A stretch of DNA of 64,000 nucleotides, from NCBI GenBank assembly GCA_015063985.1, contig SVTC01000004.1, positions 1 to 64,000 on the forward strand, written 5' to 3'. Positions 442 through 14,464 of the stretch are shown piece after piece. A program made the position numbers and the translations under genes. The stretch's first letter is position 1; the number at the start of each line of letters is the position of its first letter. Origin of the DNA: Oscillospiraceae bacterium (lineage in GTDB: Bacteria; Bacillota; Clostridia; Oscillospirales; SIG627). The notes below the pieces were generated by a model. That model had not been told where the DNA came from, did not search any database, and saw only the letters and a list, made by a program, of their open reading frames with translations.

Positions 442-561
442 AGCGGAAGTCCCATCATTCAGAACGGGAAGCTGGTCGATGCAGTTACCCACGTGCCGGT
501 GAATGATCCGACAAGGGGATACGGTATATTTATTGAAAATATGCTGGACGCAGCAGCATAA
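439..561 (+). pseudogene. spoIVB: displaced 3' end of spoIVB, copy 1
   Basis: Forty codons plus stop encode the C-terminus of the SpoIVB peptidase (family S55): [12 protein letters not shown], then [17 protein letters not shown] and a short tail ending AAA. The SGSP serine is the catalytic serine of the family, but everything upstream (PDZ and the rest of the protease) is missing, and there is no start codon or ribosome binding site, so this cannot make a protease. It starts directly at the conserved arm and keeps a hairpin terminator behind it, as an intact gene end would. It differs from copy 2 at a handful of bases, mostly silent, so it was under selection as a real gene until recently. 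Confidence 0.85.
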
Positions 562-569
562 AGCATACG

Positions 570-604
570 AATGCTCGTTTATGGTTCATAGGCGAGCATT
601 TTTA
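570..604 (+). terminator. intrinsic terminator behind spoIVB tail 1
   Basis: An 8-bp stem (AATGCTCG with CGAGCATT) is followed by TTTTAT. It sits 8 bp after the stop of the spoIVB fragment, so it is probably the original spoIVB terminator carried along with the displaced gene end. Confidence 0.7.
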
Positions 605-717
605 TGTTCTGCAGCATGGGAATTGTGGAATTTTGAGCGTAATTTAATAAAAAATTATATTTGCTTAAGTTTTGCTCGTGTTTTTCGTAATCCGTTTTAT
701 TTTATAAATTATTATGT

Positions 718-723
718 TATAAT
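718..723 (+). promoter_or_regulatory. -10 box upstream of the Lrp-type regulator
   Basis: TATAAT lies 28 bp before the regulator's start codon. The -35 slot at 695-700 (TTTTAT) matches poorly, which would fit autoregulated or activated expression. The 5' untranslated stretch is short and carries AAAGGAG at 736-742. Confidence 0.4.
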
Positions 724-751
724 TAGTTTAAAACGAAAGGAGCGACCGCCT

Positions 752-1213
752 ATGGATACGATCGACAAACAAATTCTGAAACTACTCTCCGAGAATGCCA
801 ATACCACTGCAACAGAAATTGGCAACACAGTCAATTTATCGGTGCCGGCTGTCAATAAAAGAATCTCACGTATGCAAAAAGAAGGTATCATTGATTTTTT
901 TACCGTTGTAACCAATGCAAAGAAACTAAATAAAACAGTGACAGCCTTTGTTTTTATTGTGATGCAATACGGCGATAGCGTTGCGTCATTATTGGAATAT
1001 GCAAAAAAAGAGCCGGATGTACTGGAGTGTTACTCTATTACAGGGGAGTATGATTATATGCTTAAAATCTGCGCAAAGGATATTGAATCCCTGGAGGAGA
1101 AAATCCTGCGCATTAAAAACAACAAAGGTGTTATGAAGAGTCATACGATGATTTCTTTGATGGAGCACAAGCTTATGCCCACTGTTTTGCCGGATATGGA
1201 CGAGGAGGTATAA
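752..1213 (+). CDS. Lrp/AsnC-family transcriptional regulator
   Basis: A 153-aa protein with the usual Lrp/AsnC plan. The N-terminal winged helix-turn-helix (about residues 1-60, TATEIGNTVNLSVPAVNKRI) is followed by a RAM effector-binding domain with the GEYDYMLKI strand typical of the family. These regulators bind DNA as oligomers and sense amino acids. The frame is open far upstream, but ATG 752 is chosen because AAAGGAG ends 9 bp before it and the protein then starts MDTIDKQIL, the normal family N-terminus. It is followed after 5 bp by an M20 amidohydrolase and then an aminotransferase, so it probably controls this amino-acid salvage operon in response to a substrate or product. The specific ligand is unknown. 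Confidence 0.9.
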   Translation: MDTIDKQILKLLSENANTTATEIGNTVNLSVPAVNKRISRMQKEGIIDFFTVVTNAKKLNKTVTAFVFIVMQYGDSVASLLEYAKKEPDVLECYSITGEYDYMLKICAKDIESLEEKILRIKNNKGVMKSHTMISLMEHKLMPTVLPDMDEEV

Positions 1214-1218
1214 AGGAA

Positions 1219-2361
1219 ATGATCAATAAGCTTTATGAATATGCAGTCGGATTGCGGCGGGAGCTGCATCGATATCCGGAAGTGGGCTTTGAGCTGGACC
1301 GGACGGTGAAGCTGGTGTCCGGCGAGCTGGATAAAATCGGCATTGCATACACATACGCCTATGGCAAAGGCAGCGTTGTTGCGGAACTGGGACAAGGCGA
1401 AAAACTGATCGCCCTCAGAGCAGATATGGATGCTCTGCCGGTGGAGGAAAAAACAGACCTGCCCTACAAGTCAAAAATCCCCGGGCAAATGCATGCCTGC
1501 GGTCACGATTCTCACACAGCAATTCTGCTGGCTGTTGCCAAGTACCTAAAGGAAAACGAAAAAGACCTTGCTTGCAGAGTAAGGCTGATTTTTCAACCCA
1601 GCGAAGAGGGAGCCATTAGCGGCGCAAAGATGCTGGTGGATAACGGCGTTATGGACGGGGTGGAGCATATTATCTGCACCCATTGTGAAAATGCGATGGA
1701 AACAGGCAAAATAGGTATATGCTATGGCGATTATATGGCAGCCTGTATTCCCGCAACTATCCGCTTCCGTGGCCGGACCTCCCACGCCGCACTGCCGGAG
1801 TATGGCATCGACGCTGTGGCAATGGCAGTAGAGGCTTATGGAAAAATGAAGACCATGGTTGCCGACGAAGCTGGGCAGACCAAGTACATCTGGTCTGTCG
1901 GACATTTTCAAGGCGGATATGTGCATAATGTGATTGCAGATTTATGTGAGATGGATATTTCTTTCCGCTTTTATGATATGGAATTTGCAAAGCGCGTTGA
2001 AGGAAATGTTCGTTCCATCTGCAGCGAAATTGCAACCAGGTATGGCGGCAGTGTAGAAGTTGTATGGAATATGAGTACGGGAGCAGTTTATAACGATCCC
2101 GCAATTGTGGATTCTTTTGTACAAACAGCAAAAAACGCGGGACTAAACCTGCAGCCTATGTCGCAAAGGATGAGCTCTGAGGACTTTGGCTGGTATCTTA
2201 CAAAAGCTCCCGGTATGATCTTCCGCTTCGGCACAAGGAATGAGAAGCTGGGTTGTACAGCCCTTGCTCATAGAAACGATTTCTGCATAGATGAGGAAGG
2301 TATGAAAGCCGCCATACTGGCATTTTGTACCTATGTTATGAATTGTCAAAAGGAGATATAA
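1219..2361 (+). CDS. M20-family amidohydrolase (N-acyl-amino acid type)
   Basis: A 380-aa metallopeptidase-fold amidohydrolase of the M20D group (hippurate/IAA-amino acid/N-acetyl-amino acid hydrolases). Metal and catalytic motifs are visible: RADMDALP near residue 70, HACGHD with H92, C94 and H96, and the EEG pair at E129-E130. The C-terminal SSEDF and LAHRNDF segments supply the last metal-binding and substrate residues. It would release a free amino acid from an N-acyl conjugate in the cytoplasm. It sits 5 bp after the Lrp-type regulator and 3 bp before an aminotransferase, which suggests sequential steps: deacylation, then transamination of the released amino acid. Substrate choice cannot be read from the sequence. 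Confidence 0.9.
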   Translation: MINKLYEYAVGLRRELHRYPEVGFELDRTVKLVSGELDKIGIAYTYAYGKGSVVAELGQGEKLIALRADMDALPVEEKTDLPYKSKIPGQMHACGHDSHTAILLAVAKYLKENEKDLACRVRLIFQPSEEGAISGAKMLVDNGVMDGVEHIICTHCENAMETGKIGICYGDYMAACIPATIRFRGRTSHAALPEYGIDAVAMAVEAYGKMKTMVADEAGQTKYIWSVGHFQGGYVHNVIADLCEMDISFRFYDMEFAKRVEGNVRSICSEIATRYGGSVEVVWNMSTGAVYNDPAIVDSFVQTAKNAGLNLQPMSQRMSSEDFGWYLTKAPGMIFRFGTRNEKLGCTALAHRNDFCIDEEGMKAAILAFCTYVMNCQKEI

Positions 2362-2364
2362 ACT

Positions 2365-3582
2365 ATGCAATGCCGAAACATATTAAGCACCGCAGCGCAA
2401 ACTGCCCTGCCTTCGGGAGTAAGAAGGATGTTTGAGCTTGCGAAAAAATATAATGATTCTATCAACCTTACCCTGGGAGAACCGGGTTTTACTGCGCCCG
2501 ATCATATTATTGAAGCAGGCATCAAGGGCCTGCGGGACAAAAAAACCAAATATACCCCCAACGCAGGCATCAAGGAACTGCGGGACGCCATTGCCTGGAA
2601 ACTGGAAAAGGAAAACGGTATCAAATGCGATCCGGATAAAAATCTAATCGTAACCGCAGGCGCGACCCAGGCGCTGATGCTGGCGATGGTGACCCTTGTA
2701 AACCCCGGGGATGAGGTTATTATACAAGGCCCAAACTGGCCGGATTACCGCGGACAGATCGATATGGTAAACGCCAAGACCGTCTATGCCAAGGTTGACG
2801 AAAAGAATGATTTCAAAATGACTGCGGATGTCATCGAGCCTCTGATCACCGATAAGACAAAGCTCATTATTATCAATTCTCCCTCCAACCCCACCGGCGG
2901 CGTTCTGGACTATGAGGATATGAAAGCAATTGCGGAGCTTGTAAAAAAGTACAAGATTTTCGTAATTTCCGACGAACCCTATGAGAAGCTTGTCTATGAC
3001 GGTTTTCATCAGCATAGTCTTGCTGCTTTTGAAGGATTGGAGGATTATGTTCTGACGATCAATAGCTTTTCAAAAACCTTTGCAATGACAGGCTTTCGCG
3101 TAGGATACGTATGCGCAAATGAAAAAATTATGGATAATCTTGTAAAACTCCATGAGAATATGGTAGCAAGTGTGCCTGAGCCAATGCAACTTGCAGCAGT
3201 GGAAGCAATTTATAACGGAGAAAAAGATGTCAGGGAAATGGTAGAATACTATGACAGAAACCGTCATTTAATCGTAGGAGGACTGAACCGAATCAATGGT
3301 TTCTCCTGCCTGTGTCCCAAGGGCGCATTTTATGTATTCCCCAACATCACCGGCTTTGGAATGAGCAGTAATGAGGCCGCGGAATACATTCTGGAAAAAA
3401 CCCATGTGGTAACTGCGCCCGGCAGCGCCTTCGGCCCCGACGGTGAAGGCTATATCCGCATTTGTTATGCGTCCAAATATGAGGACATTCAGGAAGCGTT
3501 GCGACGGATGGAAGCGGCCTTTGGAAGAAAAACCGACAGTACGGCAAATATCAGAATTTGTCGAAAAGGAAAGAAAAATTAA
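2365..3582 (+). CDS. class I/II PLP-dependent aminotransferase
   Basis: A 405-aa fold-type I aminotransferase. The PLP lysine is K237 in NSFSKTFAMTGFRVGY; other cofactor contacts are N175 in SPSNPTGG, D203 and Y206 in SDEPYEKL, and the terminal arginine in YIRICY. It resembles the aspartate/aromatic aminotransferase group (aspC/patA-like). The start follows the amidohydrolase stop by 3 bp, with GGAGATAT overlapping the end of that gene, so translation is probably coupled. The last about 15 residues (after GRKTDSTANI) look like a non-conserved tail. About 16 bp later the conserved arm of junction 2 begins, so the operon is the whole cargo of that block. Confidence 0.9.
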   Translation: MQCRNILSTAAQTALPSGVRRMFELAKKYNDSINLTLGEPGFTAPDHIIEAGIKGLRDKKTKYTPNAGIKELRDAIAWKLEKENGIKCDPDKNLIVTAGATQALMLAMVTLVNPGDEVIIQGPNWPDYRGQIDMVNAKTVYAKVDEKNDFKMTADVIEPLITDKTKLIIINSPSNPTGGVLDYEDMKAIAELVKKYKIFVISDEPYEKLVYDGFHQHSLAAFEGLEDYVLTINSFSKTFAMTGFRVGYVCANEKIMDNLVKLHENMVASVPEPMQLAAVEAIYNGEKDVREMVEYYDRNRHLIVGGLNRINGFSCLCPKGAFYVFPNITGFGMSSNEAAEYILEKTHVVTAPGSAFGPDGEGYIRICYASKYEDIQEALRRMEAAFGRKTDSTANIRICRKGKKN

Positions 3583-3598
3583 AAGTCTCTTGTCTAAC

Positions 3599-3625
3599 TG
3601 TTGTCCCTAATGACAATCACTCGTG
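3599..3625 (+). other. candidate recombination junction 2 (arm + spoIVB tail)
   Basis: The arm begins TGTTGTCCCT, sharing its first ten bases with arm 1 but for one C/T change, and contains TGAC in shifted register before CACTC. The spoIVB fragment again begins 24 bp after the start of TGTTG, with GTG replacing the ATG expected in an intact spoIVB. Confidence 0.45.
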
Positions 3626-3769
3626 AGCGGCAGTCCCATCATTCAGAACGGGAAGCTGGTCGGTGCAGTTACCCACGTGCCGGTGAATGATCCCACGAGG
3701 GGATACGGGATATTTATTGAAAATATGCTTGCCGCGGGGCAGACAAGCGTTATGCCCGGGGCGGCGTAA
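3623..3769 (+). pseudogene. spoIVB: displaced 3' end of spoIVB, copy 2
   Basis: Forty-eight codons plus stop. The core is almost the same as copy 1 ([18 protein letters not shown] and [16 protein letters not shown]) but the tail differs, reading [12 protein letters not shown]. Most base differences from copy 1 are synonymous (GGA/GGC, CCG/CCC, ACA/ACG), as expected of two functional alleles that diverged before being stranded here. There is no start codon or upstream protease domain. Confidence 0.85.
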
Positions 3770-3779
3770 ATCTATAGTT

Positions 3780-3805
3780 ATAGGGACCGGCGTCCTCGAC
3801 GGTAC
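3780..3805. repeat. REP-like GC-rich repeat, copy A
   Basis: This copy reads AGGGACCGGCGTCCTCGACG followed by GTAC. The same element is found at 62263-62287, 62973-62999 and (inverted) 63143-63169, next to and inside a REP-associated transposase gene. GGACCG and CGGTCC (here CGGTAC) can pair around the middle, so the element can form a short hairpin. It lies just behind the spoIVB fragment. Confidence 0.75.
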
Positions 3806-3807
3806 AA

Positions 3808-3864
3808 AAATAAAAGGCAATATCATTCCGAAAATAAAAATCGGTTTGATATTGCCTTTTATTT
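3808..3864. terminator. bidirectional hairpin terminator
   Basis: A perfect 18-bp stem has arms at 3808-3825 (ending GGCAATATCA) and 3847-3864 (beginning TGATATTGCC). It is A/T-tailed on both sides and lies at the 3' end of the AraC gene on the minus strand, overlapping its stop. A 17-base stretch of the left arm (AAAGGCAATATCATTCC) recurs in the terminator of the V-ATPase operon at 27618. Confidence 0.75.
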
Positions 3865-4611
3865 CCACCTGCTCGGCGAGACACCGCAGATCTGCTTGAA
3901 CACCTTGCTGAAATAATAAACGTCGGAAAATCCGCAAAGCTCAGCTATCTCGGAGACGGTCAAACTTTGAGTATCCAGCATTGATTTCGCGTTTTCTATC
4001 CTACGCTGAATAAGATATTTGTTGGGTGTTGTTCCGAAATTGCCCTTAAAAAGCTCGCCGAATCGTCTTGATGAAAGACCGCATTGTCTTACAGCAGAGT
4101 CGATGCAATCGGCATCCTTGAAATTGGCGTCGATATAGTCCTTTGCGGAGTGTATCCGCATATCCTTGGGAAAATATGCTCGCTGTCTTGCCTCGGCAAA
4201 GGTATCGCAGAGCTTATAGATGGTTGAGAGCAGTGAAAGTTCACCGCTTCCCGAAACGAGGTTCAATTGCTCGGCTTTTTGCAATAGGGCAATTATCTCG
4301 TCGGGATTATCTATGGGGAGACAGAAGCTGTCGGTCTCAATATCCTCGTAGGTGGTGAAATGCACCGAAAAGGCATCACCCGCTTCGAAGACCTCCACGT
4401 CGTAGTCGTCCTTTTGGTTGAAAAAATATATACAATTTCTGGATAATACAAAGCTTTGGTTTTTAAAGCTATGAAGTGCCGAGCCACTGAGAGTTATACC
4501 TAAAAAGTGATTTTTGCGTTTTTCTGCCCTCCATCTTTTAATATTAGGAGTGTAATGAAGTATAGAATGTATATCTTTTATCCGAATATTCTCAAAAACC
4601 AAAACCACCAT
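3859..4611 (-). CDS. AraC-family regulator, divergent from GRE 1
   Basis: A 250-aa regulator. The N-terminal about 140 residues are a cupin-like sensor (GSALHSFKNQSFVLSRNCIY). The C-terminal about 100 residues hold the two AraC helix-turn-helices (CGLSSRRFGELFKGNFG and VSEIAELCGFSDVYYFSKVF), ending in the usual SPSRWK. It is divergent from the glycyl radical enzyme at 4753, and the 141-bp gap holds back-to-back promoters, so it is the likely local activator. The start is uncertain: ATG 4611 lies directly against GGAG, whereas a TTG four codons in would have better spacing. The sensor ligand, presumably the GRE substrate, is unknown. Confidence 0.88.
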   Translation of the reverse strand: MVVLVFENIRIKDIHSILHYTPNIKRWRAEKRKNHFLGITLSGSALHSFKNQSFVLSRNCIYFFNQKDDYDVEVFEAGDAFSVHFTTYEDIETDSFCLPIDNPDEIIALLQKAEQLNLVSGSGELSLLSTIYKLCDTFAEARQRAYFPKDMRIHSAKDYIDANFKDADCIDSAVRQCGLSSRRFGELFKGNFGTTPNKYLIQRRIENAKSMLDTQSLTVSEIAELCGFSDVYYFSKVFKQICGVSPSRWK

Positions 4612-4629
4612 CTCCGTTTCTTTAGCTTT

Positions 4630-4725
4630 ATTTTACCACACTGTCACCGATTTGTAAATATTAATTTCCGTATTTTACAAATTTCTTTAATTTGCATTGT
4701 AAAGCGCCGATGGGTTTGGTATAGT
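4630..4725. promoter_or_regulatory. divergent promoters AraC / GRE 1 with palindrome
   Basis: On the minus strand TTTACA (4653-4658) and TAAAAT (4630-4635) are spaced 17 bp. On the plus strand TTGTAA (4697-4702) and TATAGT (4720-4725) are spaced 17 bp. Between them lies an imperfect palindrome, TTTGTAAATA (4651-4660) facing TATTTTACAAA (4671-4681), which overlaps the AraC-gene -35 box. It is a plausible operator. Confidence 0.55.
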
Positions 4726-4752
4726 AAACAAAAATGGAAGGAGCTGATTTTT

Positions 4753-6996
4753 ATGTTTGATGAATTGAGACGAGAATTGTATGATTTTTATCTCCACGGT
4801 GACGCGGAGAGAGCAAAGGCATTTGCCGACAAATGCTATGCCATAATGGACGAAAGATTTGTCGATGGCATGAGCGTAACAGAGCAAAAACTGCTTCAAT
4901 ACGACGTGATTACTGAGTGTTTTGAGCCGAAAATATTCCGTAACACCCCATTCTTTTATGAAACGGGAGTTCTGACCTCACTGTCCGACGGAGCAAGGCA
5001 TGCCAAGGGGCATTCCTTTGTGCAAGCAAACGGTTGGGTCTATAATCGAAACAAACATCTGTTCATCGACCAAGACAAGGCGCTTTACGAAAGAAAAAAG
5101 GCGCATTCTCGCGAAATGCTCTATCTTATCTGCGGACCTTATAACGATACCTCCCAGCATTTCAATTTCAATTGCCGTCCGTTTTTAAAGATCGGTGCCG
5201 GTGGCATCTATGAAAAGGCCAAAAGGAAGCTTAGTCACACTAAAAATGAAGGAGAAAGGGAATTTTTAGAAGCTGTCTGCCACGGTATGTTATCCTTGAA
5301 GCACATGGCTGAAAAATTCGCAAAAAAGGCTGATCTCATGCTTGAGTCCGAGAACGATCCCGAATGCAGAAAAAATCTTGCGCTGATTGCAGACACAGCC
5401 AAACGCATTCCTTGGGAGGCACCCAAAACCTTTTATGAGGCATTGGCAACCCTTTCTTTTTTACGAACCGCAATGGGCTCTCTTGAAGGCGTGGGTCCCA
5501 ACACCTTCGGTCGGCTTGACAAGGATCTGATCTCTTTTTACAAATCGGATATTGAGAAAGATATTCTGACAAAAGAGCAGGCGTATGCGCTGATCTGTCA
5601 ATTCCTTTTGATCTGGGATTGCCATTACGACCATGATATGCCAATGGAGGGCTATGCCGATCACGAATTGGAAAACACCTACACCTTAGGTGGCTGTGAT
5701 GACAATGGCGCACCGCTATACAATGAGCTGACCGAGCTGTTCCTGCAAGCAACCAATGAACATAAGATCATATTCCCCAAGATTAAATGCCGCTTTTCCA
5801 AGGACTCTCCCAAGGAGTACCTTGACATCATCAATAAATCAATCATCGACGGAATCACCACCGTTCTTCTGCAAAATGATGACGCGACCATTCCCGCGCT
5901 TCTTCGCGCAGGCAGACCGCTCCGGGAAGCGCGTGACTATATGGTATCGGGATGTTGGGATATTGTGACAAATCAGGAAAAATCCGACCACGGAAGCTAT
6001 CTGAATTTGTTAAAGCCCTTTGAGTTTTCTCTGCACAATTTACAGGACAAAATGGATGCGGTGGGCATTCGCTTCGAGTGCTTTGATGAATGCAAAAGCT
6101 TTGAGGAGCTTTACGGTAAGACACTTCACAATTGCGAGCTTTTACTTGACGCTAAGCTTGAGGTGCAGACAAAGGGCGGTCAGATATTTCACAAGGTGGA
6201 CCGATTCCCGATCTTTTCATCCACCCTTGAGGGATGTCTCGAAAACCGTGCTGATTTTACGGTAGGCGGTGCAAAATATCATGATGACTATCAGCTTTTA
6301 TTCGGATTTCCCAATATAGTCGATTCGCTTATGGCAATAAAGACTCTTGTTTTCGACAGGAAGAGGTATTCGCTTGCCGAATATCTCCATGCCGTGCGGT
6401 CAAACTGGGAGGGATACGAAAAGATGAGGCTTGAGGCTTTGCACTGTCACGGTTGGGGCGACGGAAACGAGGACTCCTGCGCCCTCGCAAATCGGTTCAA
6501 TAACGATCTTTACGAGATCTTCTCTCGCAAGACGGGAATGTACGGTGGTAAGGTTCATATGGGACACTTGACCTACACCGAGATCCGCTGGTGGGGAGAA
6601 AAAACACTCGCTACTCCCGACGGACGCAGATCCGGGGATTACTTTTCCCAAGGACTGACACCTTCCCGTCTCAAGAAGATCCCCTGTGTCAACGACGTCA
6701 TCAACAGCCTGGCAGCACTGGATCCTTCTACCATGGCTGCAAATTCGGTGGTCAACATCATTCTTCCGAGCAAGATCCCGCTTGAGGGTTGCGAGGGCTT
6801 TCTCCGCGCGGCGGCAGACTCGGCGATCCAATCGCTTCAACTGAATTGCACTTCAAAAAAGGAACTGCTTGACGCTCAAAAGCATCCCGAAAAATACCAA
6901 AACCTCATCATTCGTGTGACGGGGTTTTCAGCTAAATTCACAAGCCTTTCGAAGGGATGGCAGGACGAGGTCATATCGAGGAATTTTTATGAGTAA
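4753..6996 (+). CDS. glycyl radical enzyme 1 (PFL-like family)
   Basis: A 747-aa member of the pyruvate formate-lyase/glycyl radical superfamily. The thiyl cysteine is C401 in MVSGCWDI, and the glycyl radical loop is RVTGFSAKF with G724, followed by the usual WQDEVI segment. Substrate type is not clear: CutC, glycerol dehydratase and related eliminases usually read GCVE or GCIE at the cysteine, and PFL has two adjacent cysteines, while here a tryptophan and aspartate follow. At 747 residues it is shorter than CutC and most eliminases. ATG 4753 is chosen over upstream codons because AAGGAG precedes it and the promoter lies at 4697-4725. Its activase overlaps by 8 bp, so the pair is coupled. 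An AraC gene is divergent. It probably performs a dehydration or C-C/C-S cleavage on a small polyol or sugar acid, which is inference. Confidence 0.9.
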   Translation: MFDELRRELYDFYLHGDAERAKAFADKCYAIMDERFVDGMSVTEQKLLQYDVITECFEPKIFRNTPFFYETGVLTSLSDGARHAKGHSFVQANGWVYNRNKHLFIDQDKALYERKKAHSREMLYLICGPYNDTSQHFNFNCRPFLKIGAGGIYEKAKRKLSHTKNEGEREFLEAVCHGMLSLKHMAEKFAKKADLMLESENDPECRKNLALIADTAKRIPWEAPKTFYEALATLSFLRTAMGSLEGVGPNTFGRLDKDLISFYKSDIEKDILTKEQAYALICQFLLIWDCHYDHDMPMEGYADHELENTYTLGGCDDNGAPLYNELTELFLQATNEHKIIFPKIKCRFSKDSPKEYLDIINKSIIDGITTVLLQNDDATIPALLRAGRPLREARDYMVSGCWDIVTNQEKSDHGSYLNLLKPFEFSLHNLQDKMDAVGIRFECFDECKSFEELYGKTLHNCELLLDAKLEVQTKGGQIFHKVDRFPIFSSTLEGCLENRADFTVGGAKYHDDYQLLFGFPNIVDSLMAIKTLVFDRKRYSLAEYLHAVRSNWEGYEKMRLEALHCHGWGDGNEDSCALANRFNNDLYEIFSRKTGMYGGKVHMGHLTYTEIRWWGEKTLATPDGRRSGDYFSQGLTPSRLKKIPCVNDVINSLAALDPSTMAANSVVNIILPSKIPLEGCEGFLRAAADSAIQSLQLNCTSKKELLDAQKHPEKYQNLIIRVTGFSAKFTSLSKGWQDEVISRNFYE

Positions 6997-7801
6997 GATT
7001 GTGGCAAATATATTTGATATACAAAGAAGCTCCTTCGTGGACGGTCCGGGGATACGAACTACCGTATTTTTCAAGGGCTGTAATCTACGGTGCAGATGGT
7101 GTCACAACCCGGAAAGTCAGAATTTTGAAAAGGAGATACTTTTTTTCAAAAACAAATGTACAGGCTGTGGAAAATGTAAAGGACTCACAACTGAGGATAG
7201 CAATTTTATATGCTTTAATGATGCAAAGGAGATCTGCGGAAAGGAATATACTGTCGCCGAGGTGTTAAGCGTAGTACTGAAGGATAAGAGGTTCTACGAG
7301 TCCTCGGGCGGGGGCGTAACATTCTCGGGCGGCGAATGTATGCTTCAAATCGATTTTCTTGAAGAGATACTTAAGGAATGTAAAAAGAACGGCATACATA
7401 CCGCCGTGGACACGGCAGGACACGTGGTGTTTGAGTATTTTGAAAGGATAATTCCCTACACCGATCTGTTTCTCTATGATATCAAATGCCTCAATAATGA
7501 AAAGCACAAGCAATATACGGGTGTTCCAAACGAGTTGATTCTCTCAAACCTCAAAAGACTTTTTAAATCGGGAAAAGCAATATGGATACGAATACCGATT
7601 ATTCCCGAGGTTAATGACAATGAATCGGAGTTGCTGGCAATCAAAACAGTACTTTCCTCATATGGATCCCCCGAAAGAGTGGAGTTGCTTCCTTACCACG
7701 CTATGGGTGAGCATAAATATTTAGCTATCGGCAAGGAAGCACACATATTTTCTGTTCCGAGTGAGGAAAAAATGACGCAGCTAAAAAAACTTTTTTTATG
7801 A
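6989..7801 (+). CDS. glycyl radical enzyme activase (radical SAM)
   Basis: A 270-aa activase for the overlapping GRE 1. The radical-SAM cluster ligands are C31, C35 and C38 in [14 protein letters not shown] short cysteine-rich insert (C57, C60 and C63 in CTGCGKC, plus later cysteines) replaces the two-cluster ferredoxin domain of typical eliminase activases. [16 protein letters not shown] is the SAM-binding GGE segment. The ATG lies within the last codons of GRE 1 and overlaps its stop by 8 bp. It is closely similar in plan to the activase cut by the left window edge, which also ends at a spoIVB junction. Five bases after the stop the conserved TGTTG arm of junction 3 starts. Confidence 0.93.
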
Positions 7802-7805
7802 TTTT

Positions 7806-7832
7806 TGTTGTCCTTTATTGACCACACACCTG
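7806..7832 (+). other. candidate recombination junction 3 (arm + spoIVB tail)
   Basis: The arm begins TGTTGTCCTT and continues TATTGACCACAC, matching arm 1 at 19 of 24 positions. The spoIVB fragment follows in the same register, with CTG in place of ATG. Here the arm lies entirely outside the preceding gene. Confidence 0.5.
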
Positions 7833-7928
7833 TCGGGCTCGCCTATCATCCAAAACGGCAAGCTCGTCGGCGCTGTAACGCATGTTATGGTTGCAGACCT
7901 CACCGAGGGGTATGGGATTATATGTTAA
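7830..7928 (+). pseudogene. spoIVB: displaced 3' end of spoIVB, copy 3 (divergent)
   Basis: Thirty-two codons plus stop: [18 protein letters not shown], then [13 protein letters not shown]. The catalytic-serine segment is conserved, but the bases use different codons from copies 1 and 2 throughout, and the tail is about ten residues shorter. This is a distinct spoIVB allele rather than a duplicate of copies 1 and 2. If the array grew by repeated insertion at spoIVB, this most distal copy would be the oldest tail. It has its own hairpin terminator. Confidence 0.8.
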
Positions 7929-7953
7929 GCTCTGCGGACTATACCGCAGAGCT
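7928..7953. terminator. hairpin terminator behind spoIVB tail 3
   Basis: A perfect 10-bp stem, AGCTCTGCGG with CCGCAGAGCT around a 6-base loop, begins at the stop codon of the fragment. It also overlaps the last codons of the minus-strand membrane protein gene, so it separates two convergent units. Confidence 0.65.
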
Positions 7954-8511
7954 ACTGTTATCAATATCAACCTTTTGCCGTTTCTTCCTGCGGGCAAAAT
8001 GATTGGAAAAGAGGGCAAAACTGCCAATAAAAACGCCGATCAGGCATAATCCGACCAAAACAAAATACAATCCGTTTTCCAATCGTGTTTGGCTTTTTGC
8101 ATCGTCAAAGGAAAGAATGACTTCGTTATCAGACTTCAATTCCCAAACGTCTTGCGAATTGGGGTGGAGAAGCATATCTAACCGTTGGCCCTTTTCCAAA
8201 GCCTCAAGCTTTTCATCCATTTCCACGTGATAAGCGGCGGTATTTAAATAAAGCTCGCTTCTGTCAATAAAACGGATCTGTACTTCGTTTACTGCTCCGC
8301 TTTTACCGTATGAAAGCCTGTATGAATCAAAGCTTCCCGTTGCAGCTACGGCTTCTTCGCGGTCGATCAATTGATTAAGATACAAGCAATTATACGTGAA
8401 GATACTCCCTAAAACACTACCCAAAGCAATGAAGAAAATACACATCCACAAGGGGATATCCGCAAAATCTATTCTTTTTGTAGCCTTGATCTTATGTTGC
8501 TTTTTCTTCAT
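7939..8511 (-). CDS. DUF3592-like two-TM membrane protein
   Basis: A 190-aa protein with a basic N-terminus, a transmembrane segment at about residues 22-45 (MCIFFIALGSVLGSIFTY), an extracytoplasmic domain of about 95 residues, a second transmembrane segment at about 147-168 (YFVLVGLCLIGVFIGSF), and a basic tail (ARRKKRQK). The topology and the small beta-rich middle (YHVEMDEKLEALEKGQRLDM) resemble DUF3592 proteins, whose function is not established. It lies 9 bp downstream of the Doc-like toxin gene on the same strand and may be cotranscribed, but no functional link is evident. Confidence 0.7.
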   Translation of the reverse strand: MKKKQHKIKATKRIDFADIPLWMCIFFIALGSVLGSIFTYNCLYLNQLIDREEAVAATGSFDSYRLSYGKSGAVNEVQIRFIDRSELYLNTAAYHVEMDEKLEALEKGQRLDMLLHPNSQDVWELKSDNEVILSFDDAKSQTRLENGLYFVLVGLCLIGVFIGSFALFSNHFARRKKRQKVDIDNSSSAV

Positions 8512-8520
8512 AAAGAATTA

Positions 8521-8898
8521 TTACTCCTCATTCTCCAATATCCAATCAAGGAGCTCTTGGTATTTCATCTCACCTGCCGCAACCGCAAGACCGACACGGG
8601 CGACCTCGGCGTTGATGGGGCGAAGCTTGATACCGTTGATTTCAAGGAAGGTCAAAAGCACGAACATACCGATTCTCTTGTTTCCGTCCACGAAGGCGTG
8701 GTTGGAGATAAGCGCAAAGCCGAGCCGTGCACCCTTTTCCTGCTTGGTTGGATATAACTCTTTTCCGCCAAATGTGGCAAATGCCGACTCCAGCGCACTG
8801 TTGAGAAGAGCAATATCGCGCACGTTGGGATCTCCGCCCGTTTCTGCCGTAATGAGCTTGTGCAGTGAAAGCACCTTTTCTTGACTGAGCTTTATCAT
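8521..8898 (-). CDS. doc: Doc-family toxin (Fic fold)
   Basis: A 125-aa death-on-curing protein. The defining Fic/Doc motif HAFVDGNKRIG lies near residues 66-76 and matches the HxFx(D/N)GNKR consensus. Doc toxins phosphorylate elongation factor Tu and arrest translation until neutralised by Phd. The gene overlaps the upstream Phd-like gene by 4 bp, the normal antitoxin-first arrangement. The length equals the family norm, so it appears intact. It lies directly after the spoIVB array, a location that fits a stabilising module of a genomic island, though this is inference. Confidence 0.9.
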   Translation of the reverse strand: MIKLSQEKVLSLHKLITAETGGDPNVRDIALLNSALESAFATFGGKELYPTKQEKGARLGFALISNHAFVDGNKRIGMFVLLTFLEINGIKLRPINAEVARVGLAVAAGEMKYQELLDWILENEE

Positions 8899-9137
8899 TT
8901 TGCAAGCTCCTCAAAGGCGGGGCGGTAAATCCTCAGGATACGTGCCGCCACAAAGTCGATCTTCTCATCGTCGGTCATTTCAACGGTAGAATCCTGTTCT
9001 ATATCTACCAGCTTGTATTTGGGCTTGTTGTTCTTGAAAATATAAAGCTCGCCGTGCTTATCTGCCATTCTGGCCACACGGGAAAAATTTTGATTTGCTT
9101 CGGAGATCGAAACTATCCTATTCGTATTCAAATTCAT
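8895..9137 (-). CDS. phd: Phd/YefM-family antitoxin
   Basis: An 80-aa antitoxin. The N-terminal half (RIVSISEANQNFSRVARMAD, then GELYIFKNNKPKYKLVDI) is the Phd/YefM DNA-binding fold, and the C-terminal half (ILRIYRPAFEELAK) would be the disordered segment that wraps the toxin. It is preceded by AAGGAGG at good spacing and by a strong promoter at 9169-9197. Repeated TAGGATTAT and TAGGATATT blocks around that promoter are candidate autoregulatory sites, since Phd normally represses its own operon. Confidence 0.88.
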   Translation of the reverse strand: MNLNTNRIVSISEANQNFSRVARMADKHGELYIFKNNKPKYKLVDIEQDSTVEMTDDEKIDFVAARILRIYRPAFEELAK

Positions 9138-9168
9138 TATAAATACCTCCTTATAGGATTATGATAAT

Positions 9169-9197
9169 ATTGTACATAAATTTTAGGATATTGTCAA
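9169..9197 (-). promoter_or_regulatory. promoter of the phd-doc operon
   Basis: On the minus strand, TTGACA (9192-9197) and TACAAT (9169-9174) are separated by 17 bp. Similar TAGGAT(T)AT blocks flank the -10 region, consistent with a repressor site. Confidence 0.7.
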
Positions 9198-9238
9198 CCT
9201 GAATCAGACTTTTTATAAGCTTCTTATCGTTGTCTTTT

Positions 9239-10036
9239 TTATCCCAAATTATTCCTTTTAAATTCACCGGGAGTGAGACCTACCTTGTTTTTAAAAAAGC
9301 GGACGAAATAGCTTACGTCGTCAAATCCGCATTTTTCAGCGATCTCCGTTACGGTATAATATCCGCTGTTCAAATATTCCTTGGCGTAATAAAGCCGTAT
9401 GGAATCTCGGTATTGCAAGGGAGGATCGGGATATACCTTATTCCATTCCCGCCTGAAATTCGTTACGCTCATATTGGAGAGCTTTGCCAATTCCTCCAAG
9501 GAGATCGGCTGATGGAAATGCTGCTCTATATATTCCCTTGCGGGAAGCAGCCTGCGGTAAGATGCCGCATTTTGTCGATTGATCCAATCGGAATAGAAAA
9601 TCGAAAGCAGCTCGTAGAGATGACCTGTCGCCTGCAGCTCGAAGCCTGTGTTTTTCCACGTCCACGCGTTTGTTAATTCTATAAACTTTCTTTTGAGCCG
9701 CTCCGAGCCTTCTTCCTGCAGCAGGGAATAGGGCTTATTGAAAAAATCCGATCTTGACGTATCCAAGTGAATATCAAAATTTACGGTGTAATGCTCGAAT
9801 TCCCTTTCCGTAACGATGGAATAAGCGCAATCGGGAGAAAGAAACAGTGTATCACCCTCTGTAATTGTGATGCGTTCACCTGTAAACATTCGGTATTCCG
9901 CACTGCCGCTTTGCACGTAAACCAGACCGTAATGACCTCTTCCCGAGGGGTACTCGCACCTATGGACTCGGTCAAGAACGTATTTATGTGCAATGTGTAT
10001 TTTTTTGATATCCAAATAAAAATCCTCTGAAAACAT
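9239..10036 (-). CDS. AraC-family regulator, divergent from sugar isomerase
   Basis: A 265-aa regulator with an N-terminal cupin sensor (GLVYVQSGSAEYRMFTGE, then TEGDTLFLSPDCAYSI) and a C-terminal AraC domain (LAKLSNMSVTNFRREWNK and VTEIAEKCGFDDVSYFVRFF, ending LTPGEFKRN). GGGGGAG precedes the ATG. It has its own sigma-A promoter (10067-10095), which is only 7 bp from a 42-bp element also found upstream of the operon at 34842. The regulator is therefore the prime candidate to bind that element and to activate the isomerase gene while controlling itself. Confidence 0.9.
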   Translation of the reverse strand: MFSEDFYLDIKKIHIAHKYVLDRVHRCEYPSGRGHYGLVYVQSGSAEYRMFTGERITITEGDTLFLSPDCAYSIVTEREFEHYTVNFDIHLDTSRSDFFNKPYSLLQEEGSERLKRKFIELTNAWTWKNTGFELQATGHLYELLSIFYSDWINRQNAASYRRLLPAREYIEQHFHQPISLEELAKLSNMSVTNFRREWNKVYPDPPLQYRDSIRLYYAKEYLNSGYYTVTEIAEKCGFDDVSYFVRFFKNKVGLTPGEFKRNNLG

Positions 10037-10066: not shown

Positions 10067-10166
10067 AGTATAGCACGAACCGACGCTTTTGTCAAGCGAT
10101 AATGGACAGATCGTCCTATAAACGGTCATATTATTCCTTGATATGTGAGGCAAATTATGCTAAAAT
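10067..10166. promoter_or_regulatory. divergent promoters with shared 42-bp operator, copy 1
   Basis: On the minus strand, TTGACA (10090-10095) and TATACT (10067-10072) are spaced 17 bp. On the plus strand, TTGATA (10138-10143) and TAAAAT (10161-10166) are spaced 17 bp. The stretch 10102-10143, which ends in the plus-strand -35 box, is 38/42 identical to 34755-34796, and all four differences are transitions. It contains GGACAGATCGTCC, a near-palindrome, then CCTATAAACGG and CATATTATTCC. This is the placement expected of a class II activator site. Confidence 0.8.
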
Positions 10167-10189
10167 GCTTTAAAAAGGAGGATTTAACG

Positions 10190-11617
10190 ATGAAAAAAGC
10201 AAAAATCGCAATTGTAAGCTTGGGACACTACGTTTACTTCGAGCAATTCAGCGGGCTTCGCGAGGAGCTTATGCAAAAGAGCGAGGAGTTCAGATCCTAT
10301 ACGGATCCCGAAGTCTGTGATCTTATCGATATTGGTTATATAGACTGTGCAGAGGCGGCTTTTGATGCCGTAAAGGCGCTGAAAAAGGAGGATGCTGATC
10401 TTTTATTCCTTCTTCTTTCCACCTATGTTCCGTCGGCGGTCGCCGCACCCTTTGCAAGATACCTTGATATCCCTCAGGTTCTGGTTGCCATTCAGCCGCT
10501 GGAGCATCTGGATTATTCTCATACCACCACCTATATGCAGCTTTGCAACGACGACGTTTGCGCAATGCCCGAGGTCGCGGGTGTATACGAGCGCCTCGGT
10601 AAAGGTATCCCGCCCTGCATTGTGGCATCATCCTCGCAAGGGGAAAGGATCAAAAAGCAGGTGTCGGAATGGGTGTCGGCGGCTTCTGCTATGGCAGGCT
10701 TTAAGTACGAGACCTTCGGTTATCTCGGACACAGCTACGAGGGAATGTACGATATGCACACCGACCCCACCGCCTTCACCGCCGCCTTCGGCGCTCATGT
10801 CAAAATGCTGGAAATGTGTGAGCTGGCAAGGCTCTCGGATTCGGTCACCGATGAAGAGATCGGGGAGCAGATCAAGGAATTTATCGATACCTTTGAGATA
10901 TGCGATCCGTCCATCGATCCGCTGACCGACTACGTGAAAAAGGAGGATCTTGCCTATTCCGCACGGCAGGCGGTAGCCCTCAAAAAAATGGTACGGAATA
11001 ATAAGCTGACGGCTCTCGCTTACTATTACAAGAGTGAGCCTGGCAATCCGTATGAGCAGTTGGCCGCAAACCTCATCATCGGTAATACCCTTTTGACCTC
11101 CTCGGGGATCCCGTTGGCAGGAGAGGCAGACCTGAAAACCGCCGCTGCTATGCTTATTATGAAGAATATCGGAGGAGGAGGCTCCTTTGCCGAGATCCAT
11201 CCCTTTGACGTTTGCGATGACGTTGTGCTCATCGGACACGACGGTCCCCACAATATTGCCATTGCCGAGGGTAAGCCCAGACTTCGTAAGCTGAAAAAGT
11301 ATCACGGCAAATCGGGAAGCGGCATCGGAGTGGAGTTCTCTCTCAAGGCGGGGCCCGTCACTCTGCTCAGCATCAACGTTGACCGTAACGGCAGATTCCG
11401 TATGATCGCGGCAGAGGGCACCTCCATTGCGGGGGACATTCCTCAAACCGGAAACACCAATACACGCGTAAGCTTCGGCAGTGACGTGTGCGGATTTCTC
11501 TCCCGTTGGTGTGAGGCGGGTCCTACCCATCATCTGGCACTCGGCGTGGGACATCATATTGACACCTTGCGAAAATTTGCTCGTATCAGCGGAATTGAGT
11601 TGATCGAGGTCCGCTGA
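10190..11617 (+). CDS. L-fucose/L-arabinose isomerase-like protein
   Basis: A 475-aa protein of the L-fucose/L-arabinose isomerase superfamily. The N-terminal half has alternating Rossmann-like segments (KIAIVSLGHYVYFEQF, then DADLLFLLLSTYVPSAVAAP). The C-terminal half carries IHPFDVCDDVVLIGHDGP and the HHLALGVGHHID segment near the end, where family metal ligands lie. It would interconvert an aldose and a ketose in the cytoplasm. Sugar specificity cannot be assigned. ATG 10190 is chosen because AAAAGGAGG sits 7 bp upstream. The 42-bp operator lies upstream. Its stop codon is followed in the same frame by a headless WbsX/GH99-like remnant, so a deletion probably removed the sequence between this gene and that one. 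Confidence 0.85.
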   Translation: MKKAKIAIVSLGHYVYFEQFSGLREELMQKSEEFRSYTDPEVCDLIDIGYIDCAEAAFDAVKALKKEDADLLFLLLSTYVPSAVAAPFARYLDIPQVLVAIQPLEHLDYSHTTTYMQLCNDDVCAMPEVAGVYERLGKGIPPCIVASSSQGERIKKQVSEWVSAASAMAGFKYETFGYLGHSYEGMYDMHTDPTAFTAAFGAHVKMLEMCELARLSDSVTDEEIGEQIKEFIDTFEICDPSIDPLTDYVKKEDLAYSARQAVALKKMVRNNKLTALAYYYKSEPGNPYEQLAANLIIGNTLLTSSGIPLAGEADLKTAAAMLIMKNIGGGGSFAEIHPFDVCDDVVLIGHDGPHNIAIAEGKPRLRKLKKYHGKSGSGIGVEFSLKAGPVTLLSINVDRNGRFRMIAAEGTSIAGDIPQTGNTNTRVSFGSDVCGFLSRWCEAGPTHHLALGVGHHIDTLRKFARISGIELIEVR

Positions 11618-12195: not shown

Positions 12196-12250
12196 ATCCC
12201 TCCTGCGTTAAAGCTTTTTGCTTATCAAAAACGCGGGAGGGATGTTTTTA
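12196..12250. terminator. hairpin between convergent genes
   Basis: ATCCCTCCTGCGTT (12196-12209) pairs with AACGCGGGAGGGAT (12230-12243), with one G-T pair, and is followed by GTTTTTATTT. It ends the isomerase unit and abuts the stop of the convergent QueG-like gene. Confidence 0.85.
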
Positions 12251-14464
12251 TTTCTTTTTAGCCAAAGGGCAAGCTTGCAGGCAACGCTCAACGATTATGT
12301 CGATAAAAAATGGATTGCGGTAAGCCAAAGTTTGTATCTTGTCCTTTTGGGAAATTATTTCTTCAATGGTTTCGGGGGTCAATTCCTTTGGAAGCTCAAT
12401 ATCCGGCAGCTTCCAGCCAAGCTGATCGGAGCCTGCTTTGCCGGACATCGCAAGAGAGCGCGCCCAGGTGCAGCGCAAGGGATCGCAAGCCATCACTTCA
12501 TAACTTTCGTTTTCTCTTATTTCTACCTTTTGCAGATCTGCTTTAAGGGCTTTTGTGGGGCAAGCTTTGGCGCACAAACTGCAGTTTTCGGGGCAAAGGG
12601 CTTTTTCTGCCGATATGGGACTAAAAGACGCATCGGTAAGGATGAAGGCGTAGCGCATGCTGACACCCAATTTTTCGTTTGCCGCCATACCGTTTTTTGC
12701 TAATGCTCCCAAGCCCGCCGCCACAGCGTAAGGACCGTTGGCGCGAAGATCGGGCATGTGTCTGCCGAATTTGTTTATCGTCATCTCGGATTCGGGAGCA
12801 AGATCGCCCAGAGGCACAGCCTTGTAGCCCTTTTTCTCCAGAATGTTGCAAAGATCCGATGCCGCCCAGAAGCATTCCTTTATTGATTCATAATGGCTGA
12901 AAGCGTATGCGGCGCCGCATTCCGCCTCCTGATTGCAGGCAAGCTCTGTCACTCTTTGGGGAATTCCCTGACTAAGGGCGATAATGCTCTTTGCAAAAGG
13001 ATAGGCTTCAAGCACTTTTTTCATACCGGGATAGCTGATCCCATCGGTTTTTCCCACCGTGACAAGATCCATTTCCTTTAAACATTCAAGCTTTTTTAGA
13101 GAATTGCTGTCTGATAAATTTTCATCCCAAGTCTGAAGCGCTTGGCTGAAAATGGGCTCAAAGGGGACGTCTGTGATTACCGCGCCCAGATGAATGTGTT
13201 TTCCTTCCTTTTCCCAATGGGCGTTTTTAGCTCCCTGTCTTGCAATTCCCGTCAGATACCAATCCTGAATCGCTTCGTGGCCGAGATCGTCCAAGTATCT
13301 TGTTATATCAATGGTGGCACAGCCCAAACGGTCGATCACGCTTCGTCTCAGATGGCGCCAGTTTCTTTGTTGCCAAGGATCGTTTTCGTGGTCAAAGGCG
13401 TGGATAAATCTGCCGTAGAGGATAACTGTTTTGAATTTATTGAAAAATTGCTCGGTTCGAAAGCCTTGGTGGAAATTCTTTTTGTTTTCCTCGAAGGCAG
13501 AAAGAGGCTGGATCGAAATGCAATCCGCACCTGCATCTGCGGCAATTTCTTTGATCTTTTTTAGCATTTCATCCAAAGAAGCTTCGCTCTTTTCCTTTTT
13601 TCTGCGGGGATTTGGAGCGTAATCCCGCTCAAGGCTTCTTTGCTTGGGGGTCATACAATGCTTGAAGGAGGCGCACATATATCCGTGATTGTCAACAGTG
13701 GGAACCGTGTCAATGGCTTTATAGATACCTTCCTCGTCCATTTTGTCGATAGGCGCTAAATATTTCGTGTCGAGGTGGGCTTGCTCGCCGTAGAAACAGC
13801 GCCAGCGGTTGATGTTGGGATAACGGATCTTCTTTCCTTCGATGGTGTATTCAATGAAGTTCGGCTCGTTAAGGCGCTCTTGGGAATAGTTTCTGCCGAT
13901 ACAGTGACGGGCGCAAGCCTTGCAACCGTCGCAAAGGGGAGGACCGTCGTAAAGGGGATCGCTCTCCAATTCCGCAGAGGTGATAAAGGAGATAATTCTC
14001 ACTCTCGGGCCGTATTTGGGGCTGAGAACCATACCGTGATAACCGTATTCTCCCAAGCCGCAGGCAACGAAAGCGCTCATGTGGCTCCATGATGCGGCGT
14101 GCTCAAAGGGAATGTCTTTGTAATATCTGTGCCGCCAATATGTAGTGCAGGGCTGAGGGATAGTTGCGTAGCCCTCCTTTTCCAGATATCGGCTGATGCG
14201 GTAGCAAACAGCGTCCAGCTTTGGGATCATACCGATCTGAAATGCCGCAGGGTAGTTGGGGTTTGGCTCTCCGCACCAATCAACCGATGCATCGGGGTGG
14301 TGGATCCCAAGACAGATAACGCTTTTTGCCTCGGGAAGGTGAGCTTGGGGCTTTAACATGTGGGGCGCGCCTTCATAGCGTGACACGGGGGCAATACCAA
14401 CCATATCCGCACCTAAATTCAGCGCCATTTCCTTTATTGCTTTGGTTAATTCCTGTTTTGTCAT
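12248..14464 (-). CDS. three-module QueG-like iron-sulfur protein
   Basis: A 738-aa protein built from repeats of the epoxyqueuosine reductase/reductive dehalogenase-like fold. Module 1 (about 1-290) begins ALNLGADMVGIAPVSRYEG and has cluster cysteines C178, C181, C184 and C188 (CDGCKACARHC). Module 2 (about 297-450) restarts with KEIAADAGADCISIQPLSAF but has no cysteine cluster. Module 3 (about 455-738) restarts with LKEMDLVTVGKTDGISYPGM and has C624, C628, C631 and C635 (CPENCSLCAKACPTKAL). QueG itself is about half this length with two clusters and a corrinoid cofactor. Here each cysteine-bearing module shows one obvious four-cysteine set, with extra cysteines further on. The divergent AraC gene and the SGNH esterase beyond it suggest a catabolic role; a reductive step on an aromatic or ether substrate is possible. 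The function is unknown. Confidence 0.75.
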   Translation of the reverse strand: MTKQELTKAIKEMALNLGADMVGIAPVSRYEGAPHMLKPQAHLPEAKSVICLGIHHPDASVDWCGEPNPNYPAAFQIGMIPKLDAVCYRISRYLEKEGYATIPQPCTTYWRHRYYKDIPFEHAASWSHMSAFVACGLGEYGYHGMVLSPKYGPRVRIISFITSAELESDPLYDGPPLCDGCKACARHCIGRNYSQERLNEPNFIEYTIEGKKIRYPNINRWRCFYGEQAHLDTKYLAPIDKMDEEGIYKAIDTVPTVDNHGYMCASFKHCMTPKQRSLERDYAPNPRRKKEKSEASLDEMLKKIKEIAADAGADCISIQPLSAFEENKKNFHQGFRTEQFFNKFKTVILYGRFIHAFDHENDPWQQRNWRHLRRSVIDRLGCATIDITRYLDDLGHEAIQDWYLTGIARQGAKNAHWEKEGKHIHLGAVITDVPFEPIFSQALQTWDENLSDSNSLKKLECLKEMDLVTVGKTDGISYPGMKKVLEAYPFAKSIIALSQGIPQRVTELACNQEAECGAAYAFSHYESIKECFWAASDLCNILEKKGYKAVPLGDLAPESEMTINKFGRHMPDLRANGPYAVAAGLGALAKNGMAANEKLGVSMRYAFILTDASFSPISAEKALCPENCSLCAKACPTKALKADLQKVEIRENESYEVMACDPLRCTWARSLAMSGKAGSDQLGWKLPDIELPKELTPETIEEIISQKDKIQTLAYRNPFFIDIIVERCLQACPLAKKK

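Follow-up and report, generated by a model that had tools for sequence, protein, structure and literature searches.

The window analysed here, a stretch of 64,000 nucleotides from an Oscillospiraceae bacterium, encodes at positions 4753–6996 of the forward strand an intact 747-residue glycyl radical enzyme (GRE), which we call GRE1. As far as aligned sequences can tell, its clade has lost the glutamate of the eliminase CxE motif together with the appearance of an invariant glutamate, Glu307, ahead of strand β3; this paired change is a stronger anomaly than the unusual cysteine context to which the earlier note had drawn attention. GRE1 belongs to an uncharacterised clade from animal-gut bacteria and probably carries out its radical chemistry in an active site that has been rearranged. 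We further propose, and would give about an even chance, that it is a working GRE of this clade, switched by an AraC-type regulator, in which the catalytic carboxylate has been relocated to Glu307 on β3.

The open frame runs from 4507; we take the ATG at 4753 as the start because AAGGAG lies ahead of it (4738–4743) and orthologs align from residue 1–5. The translation contains the two GRE motifs, SGCWDIVTNQE around Cys401 and RVTGFSAKF around Gly724, the glycyl radical residue by alignment of the Gly loop (6922–6924); the GCWD context previously reported thus stands, as G400-C401-W402-D403 (5950–5961), with Cys401 as the catalytic cysteine. Pfam scores are 299.9 bits for PF02901 and 52.5 bits for PF01228, the AlphaFold2 model has a pLDDT of 90.9 and a pTM of 0.91 with one weak stretch (residues 293–306, pLDDT <50), and Pfam, model and alignment together place a PFL-like barrel, the Cys loop and the C-terminal Gly loop in the protein. 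In a fold search, solved GREs match the model over residues 1–747 without any one family standing out: benzylsuccinate synthase has a VIA Z of 38.1, the A. fulgidus GRE one of 38.0, HypD 36.9, and diol dehydratase, CutC and PflD 36–37, so that all top scores are near ties. Purifying selection is strong in five of five ortholog comparisons (pN 0.13–0.27 vs. pS 0.71–0.88, with synonymous sites near saturation). PADLOC returned no match, nor did Rfam over positions 3500–9500.

GRE1 scores at most 245.9 bits against the NCBIfam equivalogs of substrate-converting GREs, whose cut-offs are about 1000–1150; it lies under the curated cut-off for HypD, CutC, HpsG, HpfG, the indoleacetate and hydroxyphenylacetate decarboxylases and PflD, and reaches 46.6 bits against a cut-off of 994.2 for pyruvate formate-lyase (PFL; TIGR01255). 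Among PDB sequences HypD ranks first, with 206 bits over residues 169–744 only, and phmmer gives about 190 bits to the B12-independent glycerol and 1,2-propanediol dehydratases. About 20 full-length orthologs, 50–80% identical, are found in gut Clostridia and Oscillospiraceae metagenome-assembled genomes; 16 loci come from Clostridia, Clostridiales and Oscillospiraceae genomes of this kind plus one uncultured bacterium, and four more from related genomes. A match to GRE1 at 1e-100 or better occurs in 13 of 394 genomes in a sample of the order and in 1 of 398 in a sample of the phylum, that one being the window's own; of 137 plasmid records with similar proteins, none reaches 60% identity. A search of the open literature, which most subscription papers lie outside, returned no description of a GRE clade with a GCW-G/D loop.

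Phylogenies support the same placement. An IQ-TREE phylogeny of 44 proteins (L191, with no qualifying frame, is not among them) gives UFBoot 100 to the whole clade and to a group of four CxE-less sisters, 97 to the 28 main members, and 93 to the main members plus a GCWE-bearing pair (L124 and L128). FastTree on 158 proteins of at least 560 aa gives the same order, with local support of 1.0 for the clade and 0.872 for the main members plus L124; L128 is present in the 44-protein tree and absent from the clade listing of the larger one. The sister proteins are at 38–43% identity, L124/L128 at 42%. We conclude from these scores and trees that the clade is outside every characterised GRE family compared. 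The earlier note had set GRE1 apart from the characterised eliminases and from PFL and left its substrate unassigned; equivalog scores far below cut-off and a separate clade in the trees agree with the former, and, as GRE1 does not group with any functionally characterised GRE in the comparison, the latter stays as it was.

The CxE motif is described as conserved in GRE eliminases in two reports (PMC7077986, PMC8473560), in which substitution of its glutamate inactivates the enzyme (E436Q in HypD, PMC7077986; E470Q in IslA, PMC8473560). The residue at Cys+2 is Glu in our references HypD, CutC, glycerol dehydratase-like proteins, PflD, YbiW and HpfG, and aligns as Ser in PFL and in the X-succinate synthase (XSS)-like proteins L090/L094. 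GRE1 has C401-W-D, and C-W-G/D/A is found in all 21 aligned family rows (20 distinct proteins, since L011 and L052 look identical), with Gly at Cys+2 in 16, Asp in four and Ala in one. With one of these three residues at Cys+2 in every row, the family has lost the eliminase-defining glutamate. Trp402 is invariant (21/21), and a tryptophan at Cys+1 is also found outside the clade, in GCWE and ACWE loops of other GREs.

Our reading of the remaining active site was guided by the equivalences of PFL Trp333 and glycerol dehydratase His164. The segment D303-H-E-L-E307-N-T-Y-T-L-G313-G is nearly constant through the family, and E305-L306-E307-N308 (5665–5676) lies ahead of strand β3. Glu307, six residues before Gly313, aligns with HypD Phe340, CutC Phe395 and IslA Trp374; PMC8473560 describes an aromatic residue at this position in all three eliminases and places IslA Trp374 3.5 Å from both the thiol and the Gly-loop carbonyl. 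GRE1 thus has a glutamate where the eliminases pack an aromatic side chain on the substrate; because the model is poor at residues 293–306, this assignment rests on alignment to solved relatives rather than on distances. A second residue of interest is His136 (5158–5160), the equivalent of HypD His160, whose column holds an invariant His in A1, Arg in PFL and Tyr in the XSS-like proteins; HypD H160Q is inactive according to PMC7077986.

Within the clade, Glu307 follows the state of the Cys loop closely. Glu307 and Asn308 are invariant in 32 of 32 CxE-less members, and Glu307 is found in none of the five close CxE-bearing relatives (L124, L128, L129, L157 and L158); the sisters L123, L125, L127 and L194 combine GCWD with Glu307, whereas L124 and L128 combine GCWE with Ser instead. 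By these comparisons, Glu307 and the CxE glutamate exclude each other in the clade and in the outgroup nearest to it. A column count had suggested that the exclusivity extends to all GREs, which an anchored count refuted: among 160 GREs (GRE1 included, and ORFs of at least 500 aa, so that L126 is not counted), Glu occupies the position in 28/28 of the clade group, 5/113 of the CxE enzymes and 0/19 of the others, and Asp in 4 of the 113 CxE enzymes. Therefore, the presence of a glutamate here is not enough to conclude that CxE has been lost, and, given the CxE enzymes with Glu or Asp there, such a residue may bind substrate rather than act as a base. On the IQ-TREE topology, in which the node joining L124/L128 to the main members has UFBoot 93, it is suggestive that both characters switched twice together; if L124/L128 branched outside the main group, one switch would suffice.

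These observations can be read in several ways. One is an ordinary eliminase whose base is Asp403 in place of the CxE glutamate. It would account for GRE1, L042, L043, L044 and the sisters L123, L125, L127 and L194, all with Asp at Cys+2, but in 17 of the 21 family rows this residue is Gly or Ala while the other active-site residues stay the same; we regard this reading as improbable, since a residue so often replaced cannot be essential to the family. The same count removes Asp403 as the distinguishing residue that the earlier note took it for, and we rejected it as a key residue, although it may be a helper where present. A chemistry that needs no base on the Cys loop, such as C–C cleavage of the PFL type or addition of the X-succinate type, also appears unlikely, if somewhat less so: PFL (CCVS) and the XSS-like proteins L090/L094 (ACMS and LCMS) likewise do without the CxE glutamate, but GRE1 has neither the adjacent cysteine pair of PFL (G400 precedes C401) nor a CMS motif, and it keeps His136 as the eliminases do, where PFL and the XSS-like proteins differ.

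More difficult to set aside is the possibility, doubtful in our estimate yet real, that the role of Glu307 is to select a cationic or sugar group, with proton transfer falling to His304, Glu305, water or Glu610. The clade has other invariant polar residues besides Glu307 (D289, N308, Y608, T609 and E610), and a glutamate at the Glu305 position is also present in the GCHE outgroup L129/L157. Against this, Glu307 alone falls at a known active-site position beside the thiol (PMC8473560), and within the clade Glu307 and Asn308 are the only β3-segment residues whose presence is reciprocal to CxE. That GRE1 is simply decayed or inactive we consider very improbable: the residue it lacks is essential in HypD and IslA, but the Cys and Gly loops are intact in all complete orthologs, purifying selection is strong, and the regulator and promoter element are conserved.

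Under the reading that we prefer, relocation of the catalytic carboxylate to Glu307, an activase (adjoining here, acting in trans elsewhere) would place the radical on Gly724; Cys401 would become a thiyl radical and abstract a hydrogen from a small substrate bearing a hydroxyl group; the acid/base carboxylate, which in eliminases sits on the Cys loop, would come from Glu307 on β3; and His136 would provide a second polar contact that helps to manage protons. The reaction would probably still be an elimination (C–O or similar lyase), an outcome carried over by analogy from the nearest families and the least certain step of the proposal. The AraC-type regulator would activate the GRE operon from an element upstream of it, and perhaps repress its own promoter.

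The AraC-type regulator that the earlier note had mentioned, a protein of 250 aa (PF12833), is encoded divergently at 3859–4611 on the reverse strand. Of the 25 main-clade loci that extend at least 1 kb upstream, 20 have a divergent AraC relative no more than 250 bp from the GRE, and, in the sister groups, an AraC gene lies within 250 bp in L201, L202 and L204. Of the 23 main-clade loci that extend 500 bp or more downstream, only 6 have an activase directly after the GRE (sister-group loci and L205, L208, L210 and L195, probable duplicates of L050, L052, L048 and L055, are left out of both counts); AraC and GRE thus form the stable unit, with the activase often elsewhere.

Comparison of ten intergenic regions (the window, L040–L047 and L053; coordinates cut by hand) and a genome scan point to a presumed operator, TTTGTAAA-N6-TTTCCGTATTTTACAAA, at 4651–4681 on the forward strand, which the regulator probably binds. 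Its right half is recognisable in 10/10 of these regions, just upstream of the −35/−10 pair of the GRE; its left half may be merely part of a promoter, as the spacing of the halves is not fixed and the gap is longer in L047 and L053. A consensus scan (four sites in the stretch vs. 1.1 expected in shuffles) places a promoter-like site for the GRE, TTGTAA-17-TATAGT with TG, at 4697–4725 (+), and one for the regulator, TTTACA-17-TAAAAT, at 4630–4658 (−), the first hexamer of which shares positions with the left half of this element. The presumed operator has a single match in its own genome at up to three mismatches, so that the regulon probably consists of the GRE1 operon only.

The gene downstream (6989–7801, +) encodes a radical SAM GRE-activating enzyme of 270 aa (TIGR02494, 319.6 bits against a cut-off of 174.35) with CX3CX2C at C31/C35/C38 and a shortened auxiliary-cluster insert (C57, C60, C63, C75 and C83); its ATG lies inside the 3′ end of the GRE1 frame. 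The coupling of GRE1 to a short-insert activase that had been noted before holds in the window, by the overlap and the five cysteines, but not in general, given the six loci of 23. Orthologous activases differ in this insert: L040, L053 and L054 have two Cys sets, the activase beside GRE1 has a reduced one and L042 has none; among sister groups the activase is next door in L201, L204 and L194, and not in L202 or L200. An activase at G000:C42:45606-46448, with no Pfam-listed GRE on its contig, is a candidate in-trans activator of activase-less GREs. At the start of the contig, positions 2–430 of the window encode the C-terminal portion of a further GRE activase, whose partner lies off the contig.

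Gene neighbourhoods gave no substrate. Carbohydrate genes (GH2, GH20, GH28, GH29 and sugar kinases) occur at a few loci, to which we attach no weight, and Pfam on 30 neighbours returned GH2, GH20, GH28, GH29, DUF6259, PfkB, ROK, EamA, creatininase, TruB, BrxC and others; several of the 30 are without a Pfam match, no partner recurs beyond two loci, and we rejected this route. Elsewhere in the window, an Lrp-type regulator, an M20 amidohydrolase and a class I/II aminotransferase stand in a row (503–3582), likely an amino-acid unit apart from the GRE; a distant L-arabinose/L-fucose isomerase-like protein (10145–11617) lies behind a divergent AraC gene (9239–10036); and a 738-aa protein (12248–14464, −) has weak ferredoxin-type Fe-S matches only and, by eye, two similar halves.

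The window's genome has nine GREs by Pfam, and the gut genomes G313, G165, G257 and G248 of the same order have about 25–30 GRE hits each (29 match segments in G313, 28 in G165). Other GREs without CxE include L088, L131, L137, L140, L178 and L180, with GCNQ, GCNN or GCYN loops, and L032, L037, L039, L146 and L148, with Trp at Cys+2 (GCNW, GCHW, GCQW, PCNW). A separate GCWE clade with a Tyr/Gln pair on β3 comprises L004, L022, L025, L027, L174 and L175; L004, the member tested, lies under the NCBIfam equivalog cut-offs. Given the number of GRE hits per gut genome and the several further kinds without CxE, the GRE1 clade is one example from a wider, uncharted range of such enzymes. Prediction of GRE substrates reads few active-site residues and takes the CxE glutamate to be constant in eliminases. 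Here a conserved clade lacks it yet keeps the radical machinery, a regulator and a promoter, which indicates that this rule misses functional-looking enzymes. The AraC partner and its one presumed operator offer a culture-free route to the substrate, by inducer screening.

Compared with known systems, GRE1 shares with HypD (NF043068) the Cys and Gly loops, the histidine (H160 corresponds to H136) and a close fold match, but scores 245.9 bits against a cut-off of 1100 and replaces E436, D278 and F340 with D403, G248 and E307. The B12-independent glycerol and 1,2-propanediol dehydratases (1r8w, 5i2g) have the same fold and active-site histidine, whereas their CxE glutamate and the aromatic residue six before Gly313 are not kept in GRE1. 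PflD and YbiW, anhydrohexitol-6-phosphate dehydratases according to PMC12441222 (citing Ma et al.), share the GRE fold, and sugar-derived substrates are plausible for GRE1 too; they differ in having CxE and a Tyr or Gly at the Glu307 position. The relatives L124/L128 belong to the same clade and have Trp at Cys+1, but possess CxE and lack Glu307. E. coli PflB resembles GRE1 in the absence of the CxE glutamate and in FGR on β1, but has a Cys-Cys pair that GRE1 lacks, and its Trp and Arg correspond to Glu307 and His136; the CMS motif of the XSS-like L090/L094 is absent from GRE1, and the fold Z of GRE1 to 4pkf is about that to eliminases. Tentatively, and as a possibility we hold well short of the relocation itself, the clade may embody a third catalytic design for a substrate-converting GRE, distinct from the CxE eliminase and from the Cys-Cys and X-succinate types, in which acid and aromatic residue have traded places (Trp402 on the Cys loop, Glu307 on β3) in a swap made or reversed more than once.
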